The notes under the pieces were generated by a model, which saw only the letters and a list, made by a program, of their open reading frames with translations, searched no databases and had not been told where the DNA came from. The translations under genes and the position numbers were made by a program. From Anaerolineaceae bacterium (lineage in GTDB: Bacteria; Chloroflexota; Anaerolineae; Anaerolineales; Anaerolineaceae), in contig JAENZD010000001.1 in the NCBI GenBank assembly GCA_016841445.1, positions 620,001 to 684,000 of the forward strand: a stretch of DNA of 64,000 nucleotides. Direction: 5' to 3'. Each line of letters begins with the position of its first letter. Position 1 is the stretch's first letter. Below are positions 35,776 to 44,564 of this stretch, piece by piece.

Positions 35776-36059
35776 GTCCCCGAATGGAGTGAGTGGGATC
35801 AGCTAAGTATTCGTTTCGGTTCGTTTTATTTTTGAAACGAATACCGGTCCAGCCTGTGAGGGGTGTTCGGCGCTTCTTCGGGTTTGCTGTGGGTTACTGC
35901 CAGTGTACTTGGTATGGTGTTTGTTGTTTGAATAAATAAAGCGTTGTGCGAAGTCCTGTAGCGAAGCGGAACCCTGTAGCGAAGCGAAACCCTGTAGTGG
36001 AGCGAAACCCCCGAAGCGAAGCGGAGAGGGGCAGAAGCGAAGGGGCTGAAGCGCAGTGA

Positions 36060-36320
36060 GTGGGATCACCTCAAGGAGCGAAGCGACGAAGTCCTGGAGC
36101 AAAGCGAAACACCCGGAGCAAAGCGGAGGGTGCAGAAGCGCAGAGAGTGGGATCACCTCGAGGAGCGAAGCGACGAAGTCCTGGAGCAAAGCGGAACACC
36201 CGGAGCAAAGCGGAGGGTGCAGAAGCGCAGAGAGTGGGATCACCTCGAGGAGCGAAGCGACGAAGTCCTGGAGCAAAGCGGAACACCCGGAGCAAAGCGG
36301 AGGGTGCAGAAGCGCAGTGA
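36060..36320. repeat. 87-bp tandem array, three units
   Basis: Units 36060-36146, 36147-36233 and 36234-36320, nearly identical, each starting GTGGGATCACCTC and containing GAGCGAAGCGACGAAGTCC, GGAGCAAAGCG and GGGTGCAGAAGCGCAG. A partial fourth unit begins at 36321 (GTGGGATCA). Because 87 is divisible by three, all frames stay open, which creates spurious proteins on both strands. Confidence 0.9.
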
Positions 36321-38271: not shown

Positions 38272-38310
38272 AATATCAAAAAAAACAGGCTGATAAGTGC
38301 ATCAGCCTGT
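38272..38310 (-). terminator. Rho-independent terminator of the opp operon
   Basis: A perfect 10-bp stem (ACAGGCTGAT...ATCAGCCTGT, 38285-38310, loop of six) followed on the minus strand by a T-rich tract (the A-run 38278-38285). It lies 22 bases after the oppF stop. Confidence 0.85.
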
Positions 38311-38332: not shown

Positions 38333-39367
38333 CTATTTATCCAGAAACAGCTCCGCAAAGTGGCAGGCGGCGACATGCCCGGGGCGAAGTTCCCTTAACA
38401 ACGGTTCTTCTTTGGCACAAATCTTTTTGGCATAGGGGCAGCGTGGGTGGTAGCGGCAGCCTGACGGTGGGTGGATCGGGTTGGGGATCTCACCTCTCGG
38501 CATGGGTTCCTTGCGGCGCTCATGAGGATCAGGTACCGGAACAGCCGCTAACAGGGCGATGGTGTAGGGGTGCAGGGGATGGGCGTAAACCTCGCGCAGG
38601 TCTGCCATTTCGACGATCTTCCCAAGGTACAGGATTGCGATCCGGTCACAGATGTACTTTGCTGTAGCCAGGTCATGGGTGATGAAAAGATAGGTCAGAT
38701 TAAATTCCTGTTTTAACTGCACCATCAGGTCCAGTAGCAGTGCTCTGACGCTCACATCCGCCATAGCGATCGGTTCGTCCGCCAAAATGAGGTCAGGTTT
38801 GGTGACCAGCGCCCGGGCAATGACCACACGCTGGCGCTGACCGCCAGAGATCTGGTGGGGGTATTTATTGTAGAAGAACAGGGCAGGGGTCAGTCCGACC
38901 TTTTCCATAATATCAAGCACAATATCCCGGTGTTGATCACTGGTTTCAGGATAGTGGATCTTTAACCCCTGGATGATTGCATCGCCAAGGGACATACGTG
39001 GATTTAAAGAAGCCAACGGGTCCTGGAAGATGACCTGCATCCGGCGGCGTAGTTTTCTTAACGCTTCTCCACTGAGGGTTGATAAGTCAATGCCATCGAA
39101 GATGACTTCACCTTCTGTTTTTTCTTCCAGTCCAATCGCAACACGTCCGATGGTGGTTTTGCCGCTCCCAGATTCACCAGCCAAACCCAGCACCTCTCCG
39201 CGTTTGATTTTGAATGAAACCCCGTCCACAGCGCGGACATATTCTCGGTCTTTATTGAAGATTTGTCCCAAGAAAGTGGTGGGAACGGGAAAGTACTTCT
39301 TCAGATTGGTAATTTCAACAAGGTAGTCATTTTGTTGCTGTTTTTCATTCATAGGTTCACCTGTCAT
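38333..39367 (-). CDS. oppF: Oligopeptide ABC importer ATPase OppF
   Basis: 344 residues; the start overlaps the oppD stop as ATGA (a second ATG five codons later has AGGTGA before it). Powers peptide uptake together with OppD. Walker A GESGSGKTT, Q-loop VIFQDPLASLNPR, signature SGGQRQR, Walker B LILADEP. The C-terminal OppD/F extension contains CRYHPRCPYA...C, the cysteine pattern that binds an iron-sulfur cluster in this subfamily. Confidence 0.93.
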   Translation of the reverse strand: MTGEPMNEKQQQNDYLVEITNLKKYFPVPTTFLGQIFNKDREYVRAVDGVSFKIKRGEVLGLAGESGSGKTTIGRVAIGLEEKTEGEVIFDGIDLSTLSGEALRKLRRRMQVIFQDPLASLNPRMSLGDAIIQGLKIHYPETSDQHRDIVLDIMEKVGLTPALFFYNKYPHQISGGQRQRVVIARALVTKPDLILADEPIAMADVSVRALLLDLMVQLKQEFNLTYLFITHDLATAKYICDRIAILYLGKIVEMADLREVYAHPLHPYTIALLAAVPVPDPHERRKEPMPRGEIPNPIHPPSGCRYHPRCPYAKKICAKEEPLLRELRPGHVAACHFAELFLDK

Positions 39368-40377
39368 GATGCCACCTTAATGGTTGGTTCTTCTTTTTCC
39401 GGGTGATCAAAATAAAGCCAGCATTTCACCAGCCTTCCGGATGCAACTTCGTCCAGCGGCGGCTCAATCTTCTCACAGATGGGCATGGCGTATGGGCAGC
39501 GGGGATGATAACGGCATCCGCTGGGTGGGTGGGTCAGGTTTGGGGGCTCCCCAGCCATCTTATACAGCTCTTCTTCATCCTCCAGCTTAATATTAGGAAT
39601 GGACTGTAGCAACCCTTTCGTATAAGGGTGCAGCGGGGCATCAAAGAGCGGTTCGACATCCGCAATTTCTGCGATGGACCCCGCGTACATGACGGCTACC
39701 CGGTCCGACAGCTCTGCCACCAGGGCAATGTTGTGGGTGATAACCAGTAAAGATACACCGAACTCTTCCTGAATATCCCTGAGCTGGTCTGCCAGTTTGG
39801 CTTCCACGATCACATCCAGGGAGGTAGTCGCTTCATCTGCGACGATCAAGTCTGCGTTCAACACGAGCCCCAGCCCAACCATCACCCGCTGGCGCATCCC
39901 ACCTGAAAGTTGGTGGGGGTAGCTGTTCATCCGGCGTTTCTGGATACCGAGTTTACGGATCAAAGATCCAGCCCGTTCAAGGGCATCTTCTTTTTTAGTT
40001 TTTGGTTCGTGAACCTGGATGGCTTCTATAACATGCTCATCAACCCTTTGTACGGGATTTAACGAGGTCATTGGGTCCTGGAAGATCATGCTGACCTTGC
40101 GGCCGCGAAAATCTCGCATCTGCTTTTGGTCATAGGTCATGATATCTTCGCCATCAAAGATGATTTGTCCCCCAGTGATATGCCCGGGTGGTTCGATCAT
40201 CCGCATCAGGGCTTTTCCCATGGTGCTCTTGCCGCATCCGCTTTCACCGACCAATCCCAGGATTTCACCTTTGAAGATATCAAACGATACTTTATCCACA
40301 GCACTAACCGGCCCCAACCTTGAGTTGTAGGTGACGGATAGGTCTCTAATTTGCATTAAAACGTCTTTATCAGTCAT
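39364..40377 (-). CDS. oppD: Oligopeptide ABC importer ATPase OppD
   Basis: 337 residues from the ATG at 40377, two bases after the oppC stop; a longer open frame reaches into oppC but is unlikely. Walker A GESGCGKST, Q-loop MIFQDPMTSLNP, signature LSGGMRQR, then LIVADEATTSLDV, where the usual DEPTT is DEATT (a common OppD/DppD variant). The C-terminal CRYHPRCPYAMPIC motif matches the cluster-binding tail of OppF. Overlaps oppF. Confidence 0.93.
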   Translation of the reverse strand: MTDKDVLMQIRDLSVTYNSRLGPVSAVDKVSFDIFKGEILGLVGESGCGKSTMGKALMRMIEPPGHITGGQIIFDGEDIMTYDQKQMRDFRGRKVSMIFQDPMTSLNPVQRVDEHVIEAIQVHEPKTKKEDALERAGSLIRKLGIQKRRMNSYPHQLSGGMRQRVMVGLGLVLNADLIVADEATTSLDVIVEAKLADQLRDIQEEFGVSLLVITHNIALVAELSDRVAVMYAGSIAEIADVEPLFDAPLHPYTKGLLQSIPNIKLEDEEELYKMAGEPPNLTHPPSGCRYHPRCPYAMPICEKIEPPLDEVASGRLVKCWLYFDHPEKEEPTIKVAS

Positions 40378-40379
40378 GT

Positions 40380-41651
40380 CTATCTCTCCGTGAGGCGCGG
40401 ATTGAGGATTTCTGAGAGGCTTTCCCCCAGCATACTGAAGGAAAGGGTTACAAGGGTCACCATTAAACCGGGAAAGGTGATCAACCACCAGGCACGCCGG
40501 ATATAATCCTGGCCTCGGGCTAGATCAATGCCCCAGTCCGGGGTATCTGGTGGGAGGCCGAAGCCTAAAAAGCTCAACCCGGCTTCGGTCAGGATGGCAT
40601 CGCCAACATTGACAGAGAAGATGATCACCACTGAGGGTATCACATTGGGAAAGATGTATTTTGTGAGGATCTTCCACCATGAAGTGCCCAGGCTGCGAGC
40701 TGCCTCTACATATAATTCCTTTTTAACCGTCAGGGTTTGGCCCCGCACGATCCTGAAATAAGTTGGGATGTATAGGACTGCGATGGAAACAATGATATTC
40801 CCAATGCCAGCTCCCAGCACCGCAGCAATCGCAATCGCAAGGATCAAACCCGGGAAGGAATAGAGGCTGTCCATAATGAGGGTCAGTACCCGGTCAAAGG
40901 GACCGCCGGCAAAACCGCTGATCAAACCCAGTGGAACGCCGATCACAAAAGACGCCAGTGCAGAACTCAACCCGACGATCAGGGCAATGCGTGTGCCCCA
41001 AATGATACGGCTGAATATATCCTGTCCGATCTGGTTGGTGCCGAAGATAAAACCGCGATCTGATTCTTCCCGAAGCGTTCCTGCAATCTGAAGAGCAGGA
41101 TAGCTGTCAAGTATATCACCTAGTTCTTCGGGGGATGCAATAAAGCCATCAATCTCACCAGCGGCCAGGGTGTCCAGGCCTTCTTCGAGCGTTTCATAGC
41201 GTTTCTGGCGAGGCTGATACCGAACACCTTCGGGTGCAGTTTCATTTAGTTCATCGACAGCCTCCCGAAATGCCTGGCTGGCAGTACTCCCTACAATAAA
41301 ACCAATATTATTCGTCTTATCGGCGATATCCCGTAGGACGATATCGCCGCTTTCGACTGATGAAACCAGTAAAAAAGAAGCAGGTGGTTCACCGGGTGAA
41401 AGTAATGAAGGTCCGACTTCAGCCCGGGGGTCATATGGGGCGAACCACTGTGGAAAGATACCCACAATAATGATAAACACCAGCAAGACAGCGCTGATGG
41501 CTACGAACCACCAGTCTCCGCCATACCACTTCCGTGCAATGAATAAGCGGCGGACAAACCCAACCTTATCCAGATCCAAGAGCCATTGCGGCGCCGCTTC
41601 TGATTCTGTGAAGGTATGTTGATCCGGCTTTGATTTCAATGGTTTTTTCAT
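40380..41651 (-). CDS. oppC: Oligopeptide permease OppC with an inserted binding-protein-like lobe
   Basis: 423 residues, about 100 longer than usual. After the first transmembrane helix (about 48-68) the normal sequence FAPYDP leads within a few residues to FGTDxxGRDIFSR. Here FAPYDP (70-75) and FGTNQIGQDIFSR (203-215) are separated by an extracytoplasmic insert (about 84-200). It reads IGFIVGSTASQAFREAV...LEEGLDTLAAGEIDGFIASPE, the pattern of one lobe of a type-2 periplasmic binding protein (SBP_bac_3-like). The permease core with the coupling motif EAARSLGTSWW-x-IL-x-x-I-x-P is intact, so it should be active. Confidence 0.9.
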   Translation of the reverse strand: MKKPLKSKPDQHTFTESEAAPQWLLDLDKVGFVRRLFIARKWYGGDWWFVAISAVLLVFIIIVGIFPQWFAPYDPRAEVGPSLLSPGEPPASFLLVSSVESGDIVLRDIADKTNNIGFIVGSTASQAFREAVDELNETAPEGVRYQPRQKRYETLEEGLDTLAAGEIDGFIASPEELGDILDSYPALQIAGTLREESDRGFIFGTNQIGQDIFSRIIWGTRIALIVGLSSALASFVIGVPLGLISGFAGGPFDRVLTLIMDSLYSFPGLILAIAIAAVLGAGIGNIIVSIAVLYIPTYFRIVRGQTLTVKKELYVEAARSLGTSWWKILTKYIFPNVIPSVVIIFSVNVGDAILTEAGLSFLGFGLPPDTPDWGIDLARGQDYIRRAWWLITFPGLMVTLVTLSFSMLGESLSEILNPRLTER

Positions 41652-41680: not shown

Positions 41681-42703
41681 CTAATAACGAATTCGAGGAT
41701 CAATAAAGGCATACAGAACATCCATCAACAAGCTGATCAGGGCAACAAATAACGCAAAAACGGCAATGGTTGCTTGAACAGCCGTGTAATCACGCAGTTG
41801 AATCCGTTCCACCAGGTAGCGTCCAACACCAGGCCATGAGAATGTGGTTTCGGTCAAAACCGCACCCGCCAGGAGAATAGCAAACTGAAGACCTAACAAA
41901 GTCATGATTGGGATGAAAGTATTGCGCAGCGCATGTTTGTAAGTCAGTCGGTTTTCAGGAATTCCGCGGGCACGACCAGAGACGATAAAATCGGACTGCA
42001 GCATTTCTATCATGTTTACGCGAGTCAGGCGAACGAATACGCCGGATAAAGCAAGCCCAAGTGTGAGGGAAGGTAGAACAAGGTGGAGCAGTACTGATCC
42101 CAATGCTGGCCAGTTTTGGCTCAGGATTGCATCGATTGTATAGAAATTTGTACGGGAATTAAAATTAACCAGCATCAGGGTATCCATTCTGCCGGAAAGA
42201 GGCAAGATAGGAATCCTGACCGAAAAAATAATCTGAAATAATAGCCCCATAAAAAAGACCGGGATAGAATACATGATGATGCTTAATAAACGAATGGAGT
42301 AATCAATTGGTTTCTTTCGGTTTTTTGCAGCAAACGCGCCTGAAAATATACCGATTATGGCAGTGAAAGTGATGGCAGGAATGGTCAGCTCAATCGTCGC
42401 AGGTAATCTTTCACCCAATTCATCCCTAATTGGGCGTTCTCCCTGTGTAAGGGCATTGCCAAAATCCAATGTGATCATGTCCCATAAAAAATCAAAATAC
42501 TGAACATATAGTGGCCGGTTCAACCCCAGGCGTTCACGAATGTCGTTGGCTTGTTCTTCACTTACACGCGGGCCTAACTGTGACCGGATCGGATCTCCGG
42601 GAAGCACCCGCATGATAAAAAAGATAATGGTGACCAGGATCAACACCATGGGGATTGTCAGCAATAAGCGGGTTATAAGGAATCTACGCAATGATGTAGA
42701 CAT
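41681..42703 (-). CDS. oppB: Oligopeptide permease OppB
   Basis: 340 residues, six transmembrane helices: one at the N-terminus (about 8-30), a large extracytoplasmic loop, then five in the permease core. MRVLPGDPI, RERLGLNRPLYVQY and DFGNAL are conserved OppB/DppB marks. The coupling loop is ARGIPENRLTYKHALRN. Length is normal, in contrast to its partner OppC. It lies 29 bases upstream of oppC. Confidence 0.93.
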   Translation of the reverse strand: MSTSLRRFLITRLLLTIPMVLILVTIIFFIMRVLPGDPIRSQLGPRVSEEQANDIRERLGLNRPLYVQYFDFLWDMITLDFGNALTQGERPIRDELGERLPATIELTIPAITFTAIIGIFSGAFAAKNRKKPIDYSIRLLSIIMYSIPVFFMGLLFQIIFSVRIPILPLSGRMDTLMLVNFNSRTNFYTIDAILSQNWPALGSVLLHLVLPSLTLGLALSGVFVRLTRVNMIEMLQSDFIVSGRARGIPENRLTYKHALRNTFIPIMTLLGLQFAILLAGAVLTETTFSWPGVGRYLVERIQLRDYTAVQATIAVFALFVALISLLMDVLYAFIDPRIRY

Positions 42704-42851
42704 AGAAATGCTCCCTTAACTTCTGTTGTGCAACTGGGGGCAAGGTTTCCCTCGCCCCCAGGTAAATTTACTACTTCTCTGATTTTACTATAGGTTAGCT
42801 AATATTCTTGCATTGATCATAACTAACCTATAGTGGAAAACAATTTATTTA

Positions 42852-44564
42852 CTATTCCTCAACGAGGAATGTGTGGTTGAAAACCATGTAGCGTAAAGCA
42901 GGTGCTTCAATTTTGTCGGTTATAACGCCTTCAACATCCATTAATCGGATAGATTCAACGGGACCGAGCGTGCGCCAGGCAATATCAATCTCACCGGTTT
43001 CAACAGCGTTCGACATGGTAGTTGGGTCAGCGAAGTAACGAATGATCACATTCGGGATCAAAGGTGCTTCACCGAAATATTCGGGGTTAGCTTCCAGGAC
43101 CATCTGCTCACCAACTGTATGAGAAACCATGCGATATGGACCAATGCCGTCAAGCGCTTCAGGGAACTGAACGATCTCGTCAGCAATGAAGTTCGCAGGA
43201 TTCGTTACCACGAAGGGGGCGGTCGCTGCTAATGCTGGGAAGAAACCAAAGGAATCTTTTAGATGGTAAACCACAGTTAGGTCATCCAGGGCTTCTACAC
43301 TATCCACATAAATCTGGACCAAACCAGAAACCTGGCCTTCAAGTGTATTGAGGCGATCCCAGGAATCAACATAGTTTTGGGCAGTTACAGCTGTGCCGTC
43401 TGCGAATTTTAGATCGTCGCGTAAAGTAAATGTGTAGGTTAAACCATCATCACTGACTTCAGGCATTGCTGCAGCAGCTGCAGGCACAAGTTCAGCCGTA
43501 CCGGGAACATAGCCCAGCAATGCTGCACCGGTGTTTTTGATGATCTCCCAGTCATGGGTCGCATATGCATCGCTGGCATCAAGGCTGTTGACCTCGTCAG
43601 TCGTACCGATGATGATGGTGTCAGAGCTACCTGAAGCAGGGGAGGCGCCTTCAGCGAAGTTGAGACCACTATACATGAACTCAAATGGCGCACCAATTTT
43701 AATGCCTTCCACACCTACCCGATAAGAAATAAACTCAGGTTCCCAGAACAAAGGGATGGTGGGGACATCTTCCGCGAACAGTTCACCAATTTGCTGGTAG
43801 AGGTCTTCGCGTTCAGCAGGGTCGGATGATGATGCGGCAGCAGTAAGCAAAGTATCCATCTCTTCATTGCAATAGTTCACACCATTGTCAGGTGACTGGA
43901 TGCAGGAAGCGAAGGGTGATAACCAGGTATCAGGATCAACAAAGTCCGGGAACCAGCCCAAAATGAAGAAAGGCAGCTCGCCAGCGACGAAGCCGTCGAC
44001 GTATTCAGCCCAGTTCATGCTGTTCAGGTTGACGGTGATCAGGCCGGTATCTTCAAGTTGTTCTTTGATAACCTGCATGACGTCTGCTGTGGTGGTGCCG
44101 TAGTGCTCAGGGGGATACCAAAGGTCGAATACGAACTTATTATCTGCGGTGTATCCTTCATCTGTCAGCAGTTGAATGGCCATGTCGAGGTCACGGGTTC
44201 CGTATTTATCAAGGAAGGGTTCTGTGGCATAGGGATAGCTTTCAGGAACCATATGATAAGCGGGGATGTTGCGACCTTCGAAGACACGGTCAACGATCAC
44301 TTCCCGATCGATGGCTGCTGCGATTGCCTCTCGGAGAGGTTGGGTCCACAGGTATTCCGGTTCTGTTTCGTCGGTTGTTTCAACCATTTCTTCAGTTTCT
44401 TCAACCATTTCTTCGGTTTCTTCGACGACTGCTTCGGTCTCTTCGACCATTTCCTCGGTTTCTTCAACCATTTCTTCAGTTTCGGCTGCTGGCTGGCATG
44501 CACCTAAAAGAATGCTGGCCATAACCAAAACGGCGAGTAAGACTAAAAACTTCTTTGTTTTCAT
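42852..44564 (-). CDS. oppA: Peptide-binding lipoprotein OppA, apparently circularly permuted
   Basis: 570 residues from the ATG at 44564 (AAGGAG six bases upstream). Lipobox LLGAC (Cys23), then a tandem acidic heptad repeat (EEMVEET, residues about 30-64). The SBP_bac_5 domain then appears in swapped order. Residues 71-303 match the C-terminal half of ordinary OppA/DppA (LREAIAAAIDREVIVDRVF..., GWFPDFVDPDTWL, NYCNEEMDTLL, DVPTIPLFW). A short Ser/Gly/Ala linker (304-314) follows. Residues 315-570 match the N-terminal half (IIIGTTDEVNSLDASDAY, VSDDGLTYTFTLRDDLKFADG, GIGPYRMV, ALRYMVFNHTF), and the protein ends there. Nothing is missing; the parts are only reordered. Confidence 0.9.
   Translation of the reverse strand: MKTKKFLVLLAVLVMASILLGACQPAAETEEMVEETEEMVEETEAVVEETEEMVEETEEMVETTDETEPEYLWTQPLREAIAAAIDREVIVDRVFEGRNIPAYHMVPESYPYATEPFLDKYGTRDLDMAIQLLTDEGYTADNKFVFDLWYPPEHYGTTTADVMQVIKEQLEDTGLITVNLNSMNWAEYVDGFVAGELPFFILGWFPDFVDPDTWLSPFASCIQSPDNGVNYCNEEMDTLLTAAASSSDPAEREDLYQQIGELFAEDVPTIPLFWEPEFISYRVGVEGIKIGAPFEFMYSGLNFAEGASPASGSSDTIIIGTTDEVNSLDASDAYATHDWEIIKNTGAALLGYVPGTAELVPAAAAAMPEVSDDGLTYTFTLRDDLKFADGTAVTAQNYVDSWDRLNTLEGQVSGLVQIYVDSVEALDDLTVVYHLKDSFGFFPALAATAPFVVTNPANFIADEIVQFPEALDGIGPYRMVSHTVGEQMVLEANPEYFGEAPLIPNVIIRYFADPTTMSNAVETGEIDIAWRTLGPVESIRLMDVEGVITDKIEAPALRYMVFNHTFLVEE

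Follow-up and report, generated by a model that had tools for sequence, protein, structure and literature searches.

Can an oligopeptide-binding protein be opened between its lobes, rejoined at its old ends, and still serve its importer? The question is raised by one gene in the window, the whole stretch of 64,000 nucleotides of Anaerolineaceae DNA that was analysed. An earlier note on this DNA had placed at 42852-44564 an OppA-type protein whose C-terminal half comes ahead of its N-terminal half in one frame, behind a signal peptide and an acidic linker. These coordinates are correct; the strand needs correcting to minus. The single frame of 570 aa begins with an ATG at 44564, its last sense codon ends at 42855, and the stop follows at 42854-42852. 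Its parts are as follows.

42852-44564, minus strand: permuted oppA gene, 570 aa, with the stop codon at 42852-42854 (frame, Pfam and PDB sequence matches)
44496-44564, minus strand: signal peptide and lipobox, last residue Cys23 (LLGAC) (read in the sequence; lipobox spacing of relatives)
44352-44495, minus strand: acidic tether with EETEEMV repeats, residues 24-71 (sequence; tether lengths compared among relatives)
43656-44351, minus strand: OppA C-terminal half, residues 72-303, now first, comprising lobe 2 (domain III) and the return strands to lobe 1 (1b05 alignment, lobe-2 model)
43944-43946, minus strand: Asp207, the equivalent of OppA Asp419 (PDB sequence alignment; column counts)
43623-43655, minus strand: linker AEGASPASGSS, residues 304-314 (11 residues), bridging the two former termini (sequence, alignment)
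42855-43622, minus strand: OppA N-terminal half, residues 315-570, now second, ending with the hinge strand ALRYMVFNH and a short tail (1b05 alignment; full model)

SBP_bac_5 is the sole Pfam match of the window protein (E 3.7e-72; 243.9 bits against a gathering score of 32.4), and it falls in two stretches, the best of which aligns residues 358-565 with profile positions 1-209. The halves are swapped and there is no collinear N-then-C match, which places the protein in a permuted subfamily rather than among the ordinary members. Of the NCBIfam models, ten give matches under their cut-offs (OppA, DppA, NikA, GsiB and others), and in nine of these the match falls in two stretches. In the PDB sequence comparisons, residues 313-538 correspond to 11-250 of the 8upi chain and residues 76-280 to 287-492; for OppA 1b05 the pairs are 316-540 with 14-254 and 77-275 with 289-485. 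The search matched 94 distinct PDB sequences, and in each of the 60 listed the best stretch fits a chain of ordinary order: what matches is either the first half of that chain, with query residues 309 and up, or its second half, with query residues 67-302. No second copy of either half was found inside the 570-aa protein. These results support a natural circular permutation, in which each half is present once, complete and in swapped order, the old termini are joined, and the new termini lie elsewhere. The Pfam stretches and the PDB sequence alignments thus confirm the order of halves that the earlier note had read, and the signal peptide and acidic linker that it put at the front are seen as the lipobox Cys23 and a tether reaching residue 71. 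Its suggestion of aligning the halves separately to OppA structures gives the swapped order as well (1b05, 1ola).

A longer duplicated protein carrying both halves in the usual order is ruled out by the frame length of 570 aa, within which each half gives a single match. The duplication that had been excluded before is indeed absent, as the locus holds no such longer usual-order protein. Nor is there support for a fusion of halves that differ in ancestry, separate trees of the halves giving the same usual-order sister (L095).

A scan of relatives, with one genome per species, gave 24 loci, and 22 of these hold both halves permuted in a single frame. Three of the 22 (L028-L030) are partial or broken; of the two remaining loci, L034 (from the same MAG as L028) is cut off at a contig end and L035 has the usual order. 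Misassembly and chance are excluded because 22 of the 24 loci have the same swapped order in one frame. Four named isolates carry it, Ornatilinea apprima, Pelolinea submarina (a complete chromosome), Longilinea arvoryzae and Anaerolinea thermolimosa, which likewise rules out misassembly. The proposal that the same order should be sought in related genomes is thus borne out, and what had been taken for a single case is instead a conserved subfamily. Broken frames occur in the permuted oppA of L030, at an N run, and at G033:C93:4342-5779, at a frame change; both are possibly sequencing or assembly errors.

Permuted matches that span the junction were seen in 14 of the 61 sampled genomes of the window's family, at least 14 of 301 in its order, at least 12 of 396 in its class (one being the divergent L054, discussed below) and at least 4 of 400 in the phylum sample, as well as in 6 of 24 genomes of family f53 and 1 of 25 in the order of G290. 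These samples overlap, and the window's own genome is counted in those of the groups to which it belongs. Because the larger surveys scored the best 3 to 9 candidates of each genome, their counts are lower bounds. A best-match profile listing of 41 genomes does not register the subfamily, the split (permuted) match scoring too low to appear. Since permuted genes 71-85% identical occur in several families amid many absences, their distribution suggests horizontal transfer or repeated loss.

Among usual-order relatives, the nearest found is L095 (G802), with 57% identity over the N half and 63% over the C half. When tails and heads are aligned, both cut ends fall within one loop, which follows the FNH end of a strand and precedes the VRQAxxxAIDRE helix. 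In the models, the chain is opened between OppA residues 276 and 280, just past the long hinge strand, because one of two structure alignments ends and the other begins there. The earlier placement of the cut where RYxxFN gives way to the VRQAxxxAIDRE helix therefore stands; it is refined to a point past the hinge strand (276/280), which is kept as the new C-terminal tail of the permuted protein. In AliD, domain III alone is described as lobe 2, starting after domain I at residue 297 (PMC11192437), and DppA and OppA are described as having two hinge strands (PMC8566422). By the models, one of these two strands is predicted to end as the new C terminus.

AlphaFold2 modelling of residues 68-570 with 20 permuted sequences, a shallow alignment in which the 19 relatives share 73-85% identity with the window protein, gave a mean pLDDT of 77.5 and a pTM of 0.77; parts of lobe 2 in this full model have pLDDT below 50. 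Structure searches align in chain order only, and fold closure was therefore assessed half by half. Residues 233-494 of the full model match residues 1-276 of OppA 1ola (Z 20.5, rmsd 2.8 over 241 residues). Because whole-model searches mainly covered model residues 241-492, the first half was also modelled alone; residues 2-210 of that model match 280-487 of 1ola (Z 15.4, rmsd 3.2 over 195 residues). On these models, the two-lobed, three-domain fold is found half by half, and closure of the whole chain rests on the pTM of 0.77. The segment that runs back to lobe 1 in ordinary OppA, model residues 211-240, has block pLDDT values of 71-91 in the full model and 34-50 when the first half is modelled alone. 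Such a drop is as expected if this segment packs on lobe 1; a cut end by itself also lowers confidence. Thus, the models support a permuted chain that closes into the OppA fold, and the structure prediction proposed as a check agrees, with both halves matching 1ola in swapped order within a full chain predicted at that pTM.

Alternatively, the halves might behave as separate lobes that pair between molecules in a domain-swapped dimer, with no closure within one chain. Pneumococcal AliC provides a precedent, being a domain-swapped dimer hinged at the loop between the lobes, residues 290-294 (PMC11192437), and in the window protein the lobe crossing is no longer covalently continuous. This arrangement is unlikely, given the pTM of the monomer model and a linker of constant length in 20 aligned permuted proteins. 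The AliC swap is moreover one between two chains, no permutation being reported in the available part of that paper, whereas the window protein is permuted within one chain.

How often the permutation arose can be asked with a second permuted protein, L054 (G343), which is 44% identical to the window protein. A search of 154 genomes from its order found matches in G343 and in 16 others, all 16 of them in the usual order. Its closest relatives, in G906 and G909, also have the usual order and are 55-67% identical per half. In a 57-row OppA tree, the window-type permuted proteins, 26 in all, fall into a single clade (100/100) whose sister is the usual-order L095 (100/99), and L054 groups with the usual-order L084 and L085 (100/100). 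A single permuted clade is rejected by AU tests on the concatenated OppA (p 5.65e-6), on the N half (p 0.00132) and the C half (p 7.87e-8), the half trees holding 10 of the 27 permuted and all 30 usual-order rows, and on a 23-row tree of OppB+OppC+OppD+OppF (p 1.37e-5). A single change suffices in 0% of 200 bootstrap trees, whether of OppA, its halves or OppBCDF.

The 57-row tree omits fragments (L066, L086), near copies of other rows (L090-L094, of L061-L071; L113, of L027), partial or broken genes (L028, L029, L030, L034), loci repeating the same contigs, and L098, whose halves fall below the E cut-off. It replaces an earlier tree that included a distant outgroup from the window's own genome (L004), in which L054 lay on a long branch beside usual-order proteins and support was not firm; the outgroup was dropped and more relatives were added. 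Because a single origin is rejected with OppA, with either half and with OppBCDF, the same hinge loop has apparently been cut at least twice, independently, in Anaerolineae, the second event being seen on one MAG contig.

That contig is 5,405 bases long and starts within the tether, so that the signal peptide lies outside it. Its nature leaves some room for a single permutation, after which re-permutation would have given L054 and the window clade their usual-order relatives, or else for an L054 contig that was mis-joined. One event would explain at once why both lineages are cut at the same loop; L054 has a long branch, it is known from a single contig that begins inside the gene's tether, and contigs of MAGs can be chimeric. 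Re-permutation, however, would require several reversals, in addition to running against the AU tests and bootstrap trees given above. A mis-join would need three in-frame joints (from acidic linker to C half, from there to the N half, and from the N half to the stop and oppB), and with these joints and the operon it appears unlikely. A single permutation is, all told, quite improbable, and two or more independent cuts are the preferred reading.

The neighbourhood of the gene bears on its function. In the window, gene order gives a complete OppABCDF importer, with oppB, oppC, oppD and oppF present on the strand of oppA.

42734-42761, no strand assigned: candidate G+C-rich inverted repeat between oppA and oppB (read in the DNA)
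41681-42703, minus strand: oppB permease (Pfam BPD_transp_1 and BPD_transp_1_N)
40380-41651, minus strand: oppC permease, carrying an insert of about 110 aa that separates TM1 from the permease core (Pfam BPD_transp_1 only at residues 238-421; extent of the insert by eye)
39364-40377, minus strand: oppD ATPase (Pfam ABC_tran and oligo_HPY; start at an internal ATG inferred, the listed frame running from 40488)
38333-39367, minus strand: oppF ATPase (Pfam ABC_tran and oligo_HPY)
38285-38310, minus strand: terminator-like stem-loop and T run 3' of oppF (pattern match only)

Elsewhere on the minus strand, 35803-36276 is a frame of repeated peptide units (LLQDFVASLLEVIPLSALLHPPLCSGC), which is probably a tandem repeat of the DNA. 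The insert of OppC, at residues of about 85-195, has no Pfam match; as a partner of the permutation it is ruled out, since in usual-order loci whose OppC is full the OppC matches extend equally far.

Directly downstream of oppA lies oppB in 20 of 20 permuted loci (19 of the 22 from the relatives scan, and L080) and in 6 of 6 usual-order loci examined. In permuted and usual-order loci alike, oppC, oppD and oppF then follow for as far as the contig or fetched stretch extends. Because oppB adjoins both kinds of oppA in the same way, the permutation probably arose in place. The ligand site also appears to be kept. Asp207 is the equivalent of OppA Asp419, which we take to be the Asp that binds the peptide amino group and the counterpart of DppA Asp408. 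DppA D408 is described as binding the amino group of the peptide (PMC8566422). In the Asp207 column, all 27 permuted rows have Asp, as do 28 of the 30 usual-order rows; Trp204, three residues ahead of Asp207, is invariant in all 57 rows (27 permuted and 30 usual-order). Given the conserved OppBCDF operon and the retained peptide-anchoring Asp, peptide import via OppBCDF is the likely role of the window protein. That the permuted protein is expressed and yet serves as a sensor or scaffold, no longer part of an importer, is very improbable: binding proteins are sometimes reused as sensors, and the import role is read from sequence, but oppB adjoins in all 20 permuted loci, the peptide-anchoring Asp and the neighbouring Trp are invariant in the 27 permuted rows, and the window protein has 19 relatives at 73-85% identity.

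How might such a gene have come about? An oppA upstream of oppB would have been duplicated in tandem, in place, and copy 1 fused to copy 2 with loss of the outer halves, leaving the permuted gene; a second Anaerolineae lineage, at the least, would have reached the same outcome independently. The first step of this route exists in the subfamily, because one relative (L123, G1005; L123:5038-8924, minus strand) has two usual-order oppA genes in tandem before a single oppBCDF set. No half-duplicated oppA intermediate was found among the relatives examined. Duplication and fusion is probably the route to the permuted gene. On the sequence evidence for half order, conservation, operon and trees, on the models for closure, and with the import, the route and the mechanics that we infer from them, the window protein is very probably a working, circularly permuted and membrane-tethered OppA of a complete OppABCDF importer, formed by duplication in place.

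The mechanical consequences would concern the tether and the hinge. The chain would run from lobe 2 (domain III) into lobe 1, through the 11-residue linker, into the remainder of lobe 1 and out along the hinge strand. The lipid tether would thereby have moved from lobe 1 to lobe 2, at its hinge edge, and of the two hinge strands one would end free rather than continue covalently into lobe 2. A lipobox fits in 24 of the 27 permuted rows (23 by pattern, and the window protein by eye). The exceptions are L020, missed by the pattern though the Cys is present, L048, which has none, and L054, cut by its contig. The same gene as L048 is found at L125:3496-5352 (minus strand), with a permuted core, a signal peptide, no lipobox and a different N-terminal segment; that segment looks like LysM by eye, and a Pfam scan of it gave no LysM match. 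Tethers measure 25-61 residues in 24 permuted lipoproteins (median 35.5) and 6-43 in 13 usual-order ones (median 14), a difference (Mann-Whitney p 0.007) that is a hint only, the rows being related to one another. The comparison omits rows in which the pattern finds no lipobox, four usual-order proteins whose front carries a fused domain (265-296 residues), and L095, where the pattern matches before the start.

Among usual-order proteins, SBP_bac_5 is fused behind SBP_bac_3 in L055 and L063 and behind Bmp/PnrA in L072 (Pfam); L058, L060 and L067 resemble these three by eye. In the window's own genome, a signal peptide and an EETEEMV-like acidic tether recur before other frames (L002, L003, L005, L006, L009, L010, L011), with 49-69% identity over about the first 50-90 residues.

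There are hints that placement of the anchor matters for the permuted protein. A bolder proposal, that the OppA hinge loop is a recurrent and selected permutation site, where a tether on lobe 2 and a freed hinge strand change opening or docking and so drove the two or more Anaerolineae permutations, is tentative and somewhat doubtful.

The window protein resembles the cluster C proteins (OppA, DppA, NikA; SBP_bac_5) in family, predicted folds of the halves, export as a lipoprotein, the oppABCDF operon and the peptide-anchoring Asp. It differs from them in its swapped halves, in new termini at the crossing from lobe 1 to lobe 2, and in the 11-residue linker that joins the old ones. Natural permutation of a tethered binding protein is described for TpMglB-2 (Tp0684), of 'Type Ic / Cluster Bc', for which the authors of the study propose that the permuted topology may suit membrane anchoring and see no obvious mechanical advantage (PMC4990184). 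As described there, TpMglB-2 has a cluster B sugar-binding fold with a reordered N lobe and an added fourth hinge crossing, and in its permuted part conservation is poor, at 13% identity over the last 100 residues (PMC4990184). In the window protein, by comparison, one hinge strand loses covalent continuity and the halves are 57% and 63% identical to those of L095. It also lies outside the TpMglB-2-like cluster Bc, its only Pfam match being SBP_bac_5 and the listed PDB sequence matches being of the SBP_bac_5 type. The CPSARST study reports permutation relations among glycine betaine-binding and molybdate-binding proteins and CysB, and also between glycine betaine-binding proteins themselves; these were found by structure at less than 24% identity, and they are not OppA-like (PMC2395249). 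Permutation is thus known in other binding-protein clusters, and the cluster C case is apparently undescribed: none was found in the literature searched, which consisted mostly of papers outside subscription, in keeping with the earlier statement that no case was known in this family.

A natural circular permutation is often inferred from proteins that are far apart. In this case the permuted genes are known together with usual-order sisters, a tandemly duplicated relative and the operon that they share, which makes both the route and its consequences directly testable. A profile search names such genes correctly and does not flag the swapped order, and therefore more cases may exist. Two independent cuts at the same loop would mean that the lobe crossing is a tolerated, and perhaps a favoured, point at which to reopen the chain of an OppA protein.
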